Shown here: positions 9,592 to 24,573 of the stretch, piece by piece
Position numbering within the stretch: the stretch's first letter is position 1
Layout of the letters: each line of letters opens with the position of its first letter
From: a virus
Virus record (IMG/VR): IMGVR_UViG_3300043568_000537
Location: 1 to 54,463 of that record
Length of the DNA: 54,463 bases
Direction: 5' to 3' (one strand)
Program-made: the position numbers and the translations under genes
The notes under the pieces: generated by a model
Database searches by the model: none
Told to the model about the DNA's origin: nothing
What the model saw: only the letters and a program-made list of their open reading frames with translations

Positions 9592-9921
9592 TTATTGGGG
9601 GTTTGGTGAAATTTCGTCCATTCTAGAGTTGACATAGTCAACGATTACTTTCTCTAAATCATCCTGCATTGATGTTGGAATCAGTGAGACAACACGCAGT
9701 ATCTCATCATATCTAAGAGTATCAATGGCTTGAAGCGTAGATCTTTGTGTCTTCATTTCTATAGCTTGCTTGAGCCATCTTAACCTATCACGTATTGTCC
9801 TAACAGCACTCTTGGCATTTGGGGGGAACGTGCTGTCTAAACATAAGTCCTCTGCATATATCAATGCGTTTGCTATGTTTACGTATATAAGATGAAGTGA
9901 TTGCTGTTGTCCTATTGTCAT
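9592..9921 (-). CDS. Hypothetical helical protein, 109 aa
   Basis: Predicted to be all-helical, with an Arg-rich central helix (AVRTIRDRLRWLKQAIEMK, near residues 39-57). It overlaps the DnaA-domain-like gene by 4 nt. No motif was recognised. A four-helix adaptor-like fold is possible. Confidence 0.6.
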   Translation of the reverse strand: MTIGQQQSLHLIYVNIANALIYAEDLCLDSTFPPNAKSAVRTIRDRLRWLKQAIEMKTQRSTLQAIDTLRYDEILRVVSLIPTSMQDDLEKVIVDYVNSRMDEISPNPQ

Positions 9922-10223
9922 TGTTCCATCATTTTTAACAGTTCTTTTTCTACTATCCTGTACTTGAATGTAAAGTTGTCATCATACTTTAACATAAAGT
10001 CAGCATCATTAATGTGGTATAGTGTACCACTATGCTCATTACATCCTACATACCTCGCTACATCCATAAATGTGTGAAGCATATACTTTTTAAGTAGGGA
10101 TACAAATGCTTTCTTTGCGTACATCTCTGCTCTTTTCCTTTCTCTACCACGTAGGTAGAACTCTTGGTCAACCTCAAAGACTTCAGCGACCATTAGCTTT
10201 AGTTTGTGTTTGTAATCTTCCAT
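9918..10223 (-). CDS. DnaA domain IV-like DNA-binding protein (first of two)
   Basis: A 101-residue protein resembling only the C-terminal DNA-binding domain of DnaA: RGRERKRAEMYAKKAF (residues 25-40) followed by a helix, ARYVGCNEHSGTLYHI (57-72) and a terminal helix. This matches the R-K-x-x-x-A-R helix and the DHST-VLHA-type helix-turn-helix that reads DnaA boxes. The AAA+ and N-terminal domains are absent. Such a protein could bind DnaA boxes at the phage or host origin or block host DnaA. A second copy of this fold lies at 14910. Confidence 0.6.
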   Translation of the reverse strand: MEDYKHKLKLMVAEVFEVDQEFYLRGRERKRAEMYAKKAFVSLLKKYMLHTFMDVARYVGCNEHSGTLYHINDADFMLKYDDNFTFKYRIVEKELLKMMEQ

Positions 10224-14909: not shown

Positions 14910-15338
14910 TTATTCGTAAACGATTTTAATATTACCTTCCTTGATTAGATTATGTTTCTTAGCACATTCAACTATACCGGCATACACTTCCGGATAAGCT
15001 TTAGCCCAATCCTTGCAAGTATTTATGCTGTGTAGTAGTGTACTATGTTGTCTTAGATTTAGCATCTTGTATATCTTATGCATAGTCATTGCCTCTTCTT
15101 CAACGAGCATATACCTAAACCATATCTTTTCATATGAGTTATTCTTTCTGCCCTTAGAGAATAGCACAGACTTGTCTACGTTGAAATACTCAGCTATAGC
15201 AGTCGCCCACTTATCAACCCTTGGATCATCGTCTGTCACCTCTCCGCTTGCATTCCTCTTCTCTTGTACAGTAAGTTCTTTACCATACTTATCATATATA
15301 TACTTCTTGAAATCTAACACATCATTGCTGAAAGCCAT
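14910..15338 (-). CDS. DnaA domain IV-like DNA-binding protein (second of two)
   Basis: A 142-residue protein whose C-terminal half follows the DnaA DNA-binding domain: IAEYFNVDKSVLFSKGR near residues 49-65, IWFRYMLVEEE near 71-81, and HKIYKMLNLRQHSTLLHSI near 87-105, where QHSTLLHS matches the signature DHSTVLHA helix. No ATPase domain is present. An exact DnaA-box sequence TTATCCACA lies 640 bp upstream, at 15980. It may act at the replication origin or compete with host DnaA. Confidence 0.7.
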   Translation of the reverse strand: MAFSNDVLDFKKYIYDKYGKELTVQEKRNASGEVTDDDPRVDKWATAIAEYFNVDKSVLFSKGRKNNSYEKIWFRYMLVEEEAMTMHKIYKMLNLRQHSTLLHSINTCKDWAKAYPEVYAGIVECAKKHNLIKEGNIKIVYE

Positions 15339-22818: not shown

Positions 22819-23211
22819 TTACTTTTTTGTAGCGTAGTAACGCTTGATTAATCCCAATACTAACCAAGTAGAAAAGCCCTTTGTATCGCTGTAAACTATT
22901 TCTTTTTCGTTTCTTAATGGGATTAAGTTTGTAGGGGTTAGGTCTTTTTCATTGTAGTTTTTGAATGAACTTAGGAACTTACCATCTGACAATTTGATGG
23001 CTGTAATACATGAGGAAATTGACCTTAGCTTTAATTTAGCATCCCTATTTTGAACGCTTTTGAATTGTTGTAATTCCCTTCCCGATACATTTTCGGCAAG
23101 GAAAATAATTTTTTCGCTTTTCTTAACAGCTGTTTTTTCGCTTTTCGCTTTGCTGTTTCCTTTCGCTGTTGCTGTTGCTTTGCTGTTTTTTGTTGCTGTT
23201 GCTGTGCTCAT
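22819..23211 (-). CDS. Hypothetical basic protein at the control region, single-gene unit
   Basis: A 130-residue protein. The first 35 residues are a low-complexity Lys/Ala/Thr/Ser tail. The rest is a basic domain with REL..FKSV, KLKLRSISSC and a final helix GFSTWLVLGLIKRYY. It is the first leftward gene next to the palindrome cluster and has its own terminator, the position of an immediate-early gene or a regulator that acts on the operators. The composition suggests nucleic-acid binding. No family was recognised. Confidence 0.6.
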   Translation of the reverse strand: MSTATATKNSKATATAKGNSKAKSEKTAVKKSEKIIFLAENVSGRELQQFKSVQNRDAKLKLRSISSCITAIKLSDGKFLSSFKNYNEKDLTPTNLIPLRNEKEIVYSDTKGFSTWLVLGLIKRYYATKK

Positions 23212-23547
23212 TGTGTTGAATTTAAAAATTAATGAATAAATGAATAAAAAATATATGTAATAATATACAATTAATGTAGACTGAAAATGAACGCCAATAT
23301 TTCAAAGAACTTTCGCACAATTCAAAGGGCTTGCCTTGTCGCTGTTGTATGGCATTTCGCCACATATTCAACAGCTATTGAACTACTGAAAAACCAGTTA
23401 ATCGGGTATAAAATTTTAGGCATAGCAATGCCATTACGTTTTCACGTTTCTTTTATTTTTCATACCCTTTAAAGAACTAAGCAAAAATATGCTTACAGCG
23501 AAGATATAATTAATAATTGGATTAATATGTATAATTGTAAAGTATTA
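23212..23547. promoter_or_regulatory. Gene-free region with a TGTAGACT half-site
   Basis: This is AT-rich DNA upstream of the leftward gene at 22819. TGTAGACT at 23275-23282 repeats the half-site of the two palindromes at 23760 and 23787, so one factor may bind both sides of the region. A 61-residue rightward frame (23287-23472) has poor start context and I do not call it. Confidence 0.4.
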
Positions 23548-23629
23548 TTGCAACATTGTTGCAAATATGTAAACTATCTACGAAAACGATTTCGTAAATT
23601 TATTTGGTTATGTCGTTACAATTTTGTAA
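23548..23629. promoter_or_regulatory. Three perfect palindromes, operator-like
   Basis: TTGCAAC/GTTGCAA with a 3-nt spacer (23548-23564), TACGAAA/TTTCGTA with a 4-nt spacer (23579-23596) and TTACAA/TTGTAA with a 2-nt spacer (23616-23629). Their starts are 31 and 37 bp apart, close to three and three and a half helix turns. They resemble binding sites for dimeric repressors or initiators. Confidence 0.55.
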
Positions 23630-23759
23630 GCAATTTATACATAATACATTGTACTTTTTTTCTCATGTGGCGAATAGGTAAGGGATGCAAATGTATTGCA
23701 TGGGATAGGAACGCTTCTATCATGTACAAAGTACGCAAACTGAATATCCCACCATAAAC

Positions 23760-23807
23760 AGTCTATTAATTTTGTAGACTAATAATAGTCTATTGATCTT
23801 GTAGACT
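23760..23807. promoter_or_regulatory. Tandem 21-bp palindromic operators AGTCTA-N9-TAGACT
   Basis: Two copies, 23760-23780 and 23787-23807, begin 27 bp apart and agree at 19 of 21 positions. Each is an inverted repeat AGTCTA...TAGACT. A third half-site lies at 23275. They are very likely sites for a dimeric regulator of the rightward transcript that starts near 24085. Confidence 0.7.
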
Positions 23808-23871
23808 AAGGTACTCGGTTAGGGAGATCCGTTTTCCTGGAATGATCGGGGCGGAAAAAAAAATAGGGGTC

Positions 23872-23919
23872 CCTTACGACATTACACCCCTTATTCATTA
23901 TTTCCTTACGACATTACAC
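23872..23919. repeat. Two 16-bp direct repeats CCTTACGACATTACAC
   Basis: Identical copies at 23872-23887 and 23904-23919 start 32 bp apart (three helix turns) and lie 165 bp before the RepL-like gene. Direct repeats beside a RepL-like gene recall replication iterons, but activator sites are equally possible. Confidence 0.6.
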
Positions 23920-24073
23920 ACCTATTTTACATATTATACCCCAACCACTTTACAGATTATATACTCTGTAGGAGGTGTATAATATAATTAAGAAGAAAAC
24001 CTCATAACTAACTGACAATCAATACTAGGATTCCCTAATAGGGGGATTAAATCCTTGGATAGGTAAAAAACAC

Positions 24074-24081
24074 TACATTTG
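24074..24081 (+). promoter_or_regulatory. -7 box TACATTTG before the RepL-like gene
   Basis: A TAnnTTTG match whose last base is 4 nt before ATG 24085. If used, the RNA would start at or very near the start codon, making a leaderless transcript. Confidence 0.45.
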
Positions 24082-24084
24082 GTC

Positions 24085-24573
24085 ATGACTAAAAAGCACG
24101 AAGAATACCTGTACAACCCATACAAGATTAATGGGATTATAGAAAGGATGTACACTACCAAGACAGATGAGACATTGACTGTTGACCCCGACACTGGACA
24201 GTACTATACGATGAAGAAGGTTAGCCAAAACAAGAGGCTACTGCACGACTCATTTGTGTACACCAAACTGTTTCAAGATAGCGTACCTATTCTTATGGGT
24301 TTATCGCACTCTTCTCTTAGGATTATACTATATGCCATGAGTGTGGTTAGACCATTAAGCGAATGTGTTATGCTACATGCTCCTGACGTGTGTGTAGTAT
24401 GCGGAATAGCAGAAAAAACATTCTACAATAACATTACTGAGCTGTTAGATAAGAGGATACTGTCAAGAAAGCTTGGGTCTTCTATAGAGTTCTGGTTTGA
24501 TCCGAACCTGTTCTTTAATGGTAACAGGGTTAAGGTTACAGACCAAAGATTATCTAGTCTAAAAACAAGCTAA
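24085..24573 (+). CDS. RepL-like winged-helix protein, initiator or regulator
   Basis: A 162-residue protein. The pattern DPDTGQYYTMKKV near residues 34-46, then FQDSVPILMGLS, a winged helix (CVVCGIAEKTFYNNITELLDKRILSR near 104-129) and the ending FDPNLFFNGNRVKV matches plasmid RepL-type replication proteins, also reported in some crAss-like phages. It may start plasmid-like replication or control late transcription. I start at ATG 24085. The upstream TTG at 24079 in frame is part of the promoter box. It directly follows the operator and repeat cluster. Confidence 0.65.
   Translation: MTKKHEEYLYNPYKINGIIERMYTTKTDETLTVDPDTGQYYTMKKVSQNKRLLHDSFVYTKLFQDSVPILMGLSHSSLRIILYAMSVVRPLSECVMLHAPDVCVVCGIAEKTFYNNITELLDKRILSRKLGSSIEFWFDPNLFFNGNRVKVTDQRLSSLKTS

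Follow-up and report, generated by a model that had tools for sequence, protein, structure and literature searches.

The question raised by this locus is which proteins read the palindromes that are crowded into the gap between two divergent gene blocks of a phage genome. The window, i.e., the whole stretch of DNA analysed, is an IMG/VR virus record of 54,463 bp, and the intergenic control region occupies 873 bp of it (23212..24084). Genes to the left of 23,211 are transcribed leftward and those to the right of 24,085 rightward, and the sign of the GC skew flips in the 23-24 kb segment, a change that is confounded with gene orientation and inseparable from it. The window phage is a Bacteroidota podovirus, and no integrase was found in it. 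Among the best annotated matches listed, its terminase showed 28.9% identity to Flavobacterium elemo phages and 30.5% to a Maribacter phage; the 85 terminase matches also included Cellulophaga phages. No annotated phage matched the region at the DNA level. For comparison, about 40 related contigs were retrieved with the 24085 protein and the terminase. The initial annotation had taken the gap for a regulatory region between divergent transcripts, organised as a genetic switch. Its description as a regulatory region was supported, and as a region the gap is conserved in the relatives.

All five palindromes reported in that annotation were confirmed. They are TTGCAACATTGTTGCAA (23548-23564, 8-bp arms with a 1-nt centre), the CG-centred TACGAAAACGATTTCGTA (23579-23596, 7-bp arms with a 4-nt centre), TTACAATTTTGTAA (23616-23629, 6-bp arms), and two sites of the form AGTCTA-N9-TAGACT, designated op21, at 23760-23780 and 23787-23807, lying 27 bp from start to start. 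The spacer of op21 site 1 contains TAATTTTG, a match to TAnnTTTG, and site 2 has 7-bp arms at 23786-23808. Counting dyads with a minimum arm length of 6 and loops no longer than 9 gave 10 in the gap (870 bp) against a mean of 3.9 expected from dinucleotide shuffles, and 10 or more were obtained in 2 of 500 shuffles. When arms of at least 7 were required, the gap tied for the top count among all 870-bp stretches of the window. Arms of 8 bp are unremarkable by themselves, being reached in 153/500 shuffles; a pair of identical dyads in tandem was produced by 5/1000. The palindromes of the gap are real and beyond chance. The half-site TGTAGACT, described as shared and as reappearing by the leftward gene, is present at 23275, but this 8-mer has 7 copies in the window, and its counterparts in the two closest sisters are TGTAGTAA/TGTAGTGG; it is therefore regarded as a chance occurrence and dropped.

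Conservation of the single dyads differed. The CG-centred palindrome is kept in place in the relatives L003, L007, and L017, is degenerate in L018, and was also found in L059 and G028; it is not a host motif in Bacteroidia genomes. ACGAAAACGTTTTCGT was considered as a host-derived motif and rejected (0/119 genomes). The initial annotation had named absence of the palindromes from close relatives as evidence against its proposal, and this was not observed: the twin op21 sites reappear in L003, L057, L059, and L033, and the CG-centred palindrome in L003, L007, L017, L059, and G028. At the position of TTACAATTTTGTAA, relatives carry TTACA-N8-TGTAA instead, and TTACAATTTTGTAA is thus a weakly conserved dyad with variable spacing.

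The gene to the right of the gap (24085..24573, + strand) encodes a RepL-like winged-helix protein of 162 aa. Within its family, 10 of 28 members matched the RepL profile (PF05732) at E 0.05 or better, with a best value of 1e-4; the window protein alone fell below a match to this profile. Its AlphaFold model is a winged helix in which residues 70-140 have a pLDDT near 90, and the best PDB matches of the model were winged-helix domains (CodY, CAP, and RepA), all weak and none at E <=0.001. The first leftward gene (22819..23211, - strand) is conserved in 10 relatives and encodes a 130-aa protein with a basic disordered N-terminus and a helical core. This protein had no Pfam or PHROG match, and it was rejected as a regulator for want of a fold or family match. 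Elsewhere in the window, two small proteins (14910-15338 and 9918-10223) gave weak matches to the C-terminal helix-turn-helix of DnaA and are possible DNA-binding regulators or replication factors.

Between the dyads and repL lies a module that is fixed family-wide: the box GGTACTCGGT, one to three 20-nt CCTTACGACATTACACATCTC-like repeats, an AT-rich block, and a TAnnTTTG element. In the window, the GGTACTCGGT box (23810..23819) stands directly downstream of the variable dyads and is followed by iteron-like repeat 1 (CCTTACGACATTACACCCCT, 23872..23891), by repeat 2 (23904..23923, 95% identity to repeat 1), and by TACATTTG (24074..24081, + strand), a TAnnTTTG -7 element of the Bacteroidota type located 11 nt ahead of the repL start codon. 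The box is kept in nearly all relatives, with one or two changes in some. In 18 of 28 relatives, TAnnTTTG, known as the -7 box of Bacteroidota promoters, lies 5-16 nt ahead of the start codon of repL. In 23810-23893 and its counterparts, GGTACTCGGT and CCTTACGACATTACACC-type repeats are kept by almost every member of the phage family, with no RNA structure, and are a candidate initiator-binding or origin element. An RNA leader after GGTACTCGGT was rejected; no consensus fold or Rfam match was found and leader z-scores were near zero or positive, and the conserved block was therefore treated as DNA. In L004 and L005, the RepL-like protein is 84-88% identical to that of the window and the terminase just 74-75%, a hint that phage lineages have exchanged the repL module.

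Upstream of GGTACTCGGT, the dyads vary from phage to phage. The twin op21 sites occur in the window, L003, L057, L033, and L059, with one-mismatch op21 in L021 and L039, and thus recur in distant relatives. A second type, CATATTA-N10-TAATATG (op24), is carried by L007, L017, L018, and L028. Arrays of ATGTTnGAACAT-like repeats were found in L005, L010, L029, L041, and L045, and in a degenerate form in L004. Operator type does not track kinship: L007 carries the other operator despite 97% terminase identity to the window. As host motifs, both dyads were rejected: op21 was found in 4/296 genomes versus about 5 in the control and op24 in 1/149 versus about 6, and neither was enriched in Bacteroidia genomes. 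We regard the op21 twins as an operator of the phage lineage.

Just upstream of the repL promoter, relatives have a further dyad of varying sequence, e.g., TCCCCTATTAGGGGA and CATTCCCTAATGGGGGAATG (L018:2754, L005:5944), possibly an autoregulatory site. It was also observed that 10 of 36 related contigs (L124, L125, L126, L130, L133, L136, L137, L139, L142, and L150) end at scattered positions no more than about 530 bp before repL. A fixed physical genome terminus is unlikely here, since the ends are scattered and the maps of G028 and G019 circularise at the repL-upstream region, their ends overlapping exactly by 49 and 127 bp. The accumulation of contig ends before repL suggests that the operator slot is polymorphic at strain level and that this polymorphism breaks assemblies.

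A change of operator between close relatives, at twin sites adjoining a conserved box, is what a lambda-type immunity switch would predict. One or more phage repressors acting on the op21 twins would then set lytic against dormant growth, and the operator types would be immunity groups; that neither type is a host motif agrees with this, as phage-specific operators should not be. We nevertheless regard such a switch as unlikely. No CI-like gene was found flanking the operators, and no integrase, as a sign of a temperate module, was found in any of 29 phage records. L007 shares with the window nearly all that L003 shares, and the available sequence (the contigs being incomplete) has no gene with DNA-binding features that separates the op21 phages, the window and L003, from L007; the one co-varying candidate, a 105-aa protein (97% versus 79% identity), has no recognised DNA-binding motif. 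Moreover, L003 and L007 have different operators but the same RepL helix region. The initial proposal of a self-contained switch worked by the two flanking proteins was not upheld either: the 24085 protein is of the RepL winged-helix type, the 22819 protein is all-helical with no recognisable DNA-binding fold, no integrase was found, one palindrome appears to be a host-type operator, and the twin-site type differs between near-identical phages, among which no phage gene was found to change with it.

The host-type palindrome is that at 23548, TTGCAACANTGTTGCAA, which is most likely an operator belonging to a Fur-family metal repressor of the host, Zur being the best candidate. In Bacteroidia, TTGCAACANTGTTGCAA was found at 7 sites in 5 of 119 genomes; the reversed control gave 0. 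Two are flanked by a gene for a FUR-domain regulator and a MerC gene, one precedes a DUF4625 gene by 44 bp, and one is at the start of a TonB-receptor gene, neighbours of the kind expected for a Fur-family metal regulon under autoregulation. A Fur-family member other than Zur is also a possible regulator. The identification is partly circular, the host motif having been searched with the phage site, and depends on the genomic neighbours. In the phages, the box (23548-23564) belongs to a segment of ~21 bp that the window and L018 share and that is missing from their closest relatives L003, L007, and L017. One member of each close pair (the window, L018) thus has it and the other does not, indicating that the box is dispensable. 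One-mismatch boxes were found upstream of repL in L034 and L060, and both of these contigs have a second Zur-type box, again with one mismatch, right after repL, before the next gene (L034:3375, L060:3419). Outside this comparison, the exact box was observed in 61 IMG/VR viral contig stretches (L181-L241), nearly all of which fall outside the window's family by the repL test; 44 of the 63 sites are intergenic by a simple ORF test, and these may be a wider set of phages with the operator. A search of the open-licence literature gave no precedent for a phage-borne Zur box.

In sister phages, the same gap holds a different host motif. The 16-bp canonical chromosomal parS, TGTTCCACGTGRAACA, is present exactly in L004, L005, and L029, 424-458 bp before repL, where it occupies the gap that holds the dyads in the window; L010 has a version with two mismatches, and no parS was found in the window at <=1 mismatch. 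With R = G, TGTTCCACGTGRAACA is identical to parS2/parS3 of P. aeruginosa (PMC4368675). The exact 16-mer was found in 55/119 Bacteroidia genomes, with 0 control matches.

Could these matches be coincidental, and the gap a plain replication origin? The dyads would then be initiator or structural elements (DUE, cruciforms), in keeping with the RepL-like gene, the iteron-like repeats, the AT-rich block, and the GC-skew inversion. As judged from composition and neighbours, the region probably does contain an origin. As a full account, however, this is improbable. Across the 884 kb of the 29 phage records, Zur-type matches (<=1 mismatch) numbered 6 and parS sites 3, all in non-coding DNA flanking repL; permuted-arm controls with 12 patterns each gave 1 match for the Zur type and 0 for parS. 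The dyads of the sisters also differ in sequence while the origin-like module is conserved.

Phage-encoded readers of these sites were then sought by profile. FUR, ParB_N, and Phage_integrase (tyrosine integrase) were each found in 0/29 phage records, many of them fragmentary, and control genomes were positive; no ParB of the phages' own was found. Since the records yielded no Fur, ParB, or integrase gene, the readers would be host proteins. The identities and positions of the sites, their usage in host genomes, and this negative search were read directly from the sequences. Host motifs with no phage-encoded reader would also be expected of decoy sites, by which phage DNA titrates Zur or ParB from the host chromosome and upsets metal homeostasis or chromosome segregation, but this is very improbable, given that most genomes have one site (two in L034 and L060) and the sites always lie beside repL and the divergent promoters, never scattered.

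The explanation that we favour, with slightly better than even confidence, is that the gap is a replication-control and promoter region in which a fixed initiator module is combined with exchangeable operators, some of them read by host proteins. On this evidence, the region is best read as a new sort of host-regulator co-option and not as a CI/Cro-type switch; the phage may leave its tempo to host proteins. We infer binding, repression, the direction of control, and a benefit to the phage from the arrangement of the sites. The fixed part, composed of the GGTACTCGGT box, the iteron-like repeats, the AT-rich block, and the TAnnTTTG promoter, would drive RepL-like replication and would probably also be the place where the 24085 RepL-like protein originates replication. 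The slot upstream would carry a changing set of dyad operators. Zinc-loaded host Zur is envisaged to bind at 23548 and to damp transcription of the adjacent early (leftward) genes and/or of repL, tying phage development to the metal status of the host. Fur-family proteins generally repress when metal-bound; zinc-replete cells would accordingly hold back the adjacent promoter. In the sister phages, host ParB may load on parS in the slot and either segregate or tether the phage genome or silence the region.

A broader reading, possible but held with less than even confidence, is that the whole family has a socket upstream of repL for host DNA-binding proteins, filled by a Zur-type box, parS, or lineage-specific dyads. 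If so, the onset of replication would be tied to host physiology with no phage-encoded regulator, and inheritance may be plasmid-like, by way of the host ParABS machinery.

Virulent phages that sense host regulators have precedents in Bacillus phage phi29, with host Spo0A/Spo0J, and in phages with CtrA sites (PMC9437464). Phage phi29 is a virulent phage with host-regulator sites at its early promoters and makes use of a host ParB homologue (PMC9437464). It differs from the present case in phylum and phage family, in responding to Spo0A rather than to a Fur/Zur-type metal signal, and in that canonical parS occurs here in sisters and not in the window phage. In the CtrA-site phages of Alphaproteobacteria, for which 'lytic deferment' has been described, the sites likewise lie in a gap of roughly 1 kb between divergent blocks and are gained or lost between close relatives (PMC9437464). 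Their sites form a dense cluster, whereas here a single dyad for a metal regulator is found, with parS in the same slot of sisters and a RepL-like gene downstream. Crassvirales phages with RepL, which are putative phage-plasmids (PMC11652158), are also Bacteroidota phages with a RepL-type initiator gene; the TerL relatives of the window are Flavobacterium elemo and Cellulophaga phages (28.9-30.5%, best listed), and no partition gene was found here, host parS being present in sisters instead. The P1-type partition of phage-plasmids (PMC11652158) similarly places a centromere-like site near replication functions. This is different from the present phages in that P1 encodes its own ParB. The response of cyanophages via host phosphate control (PMC10976474) offers a further lead.

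If the favoured explanation is true, zinc status would set the speed of, or the entry into, replication in these freshwater Bacteroidota phages, and the sister phages could use the chromosome-segregation machinery of the host with no genes of their own for it. The sensing of host regulators by virulent phages, as with Spo0A, CtrA, and cyanophage PhoB, would then extend to metal regulators and to the ParB of Bacteroidota.
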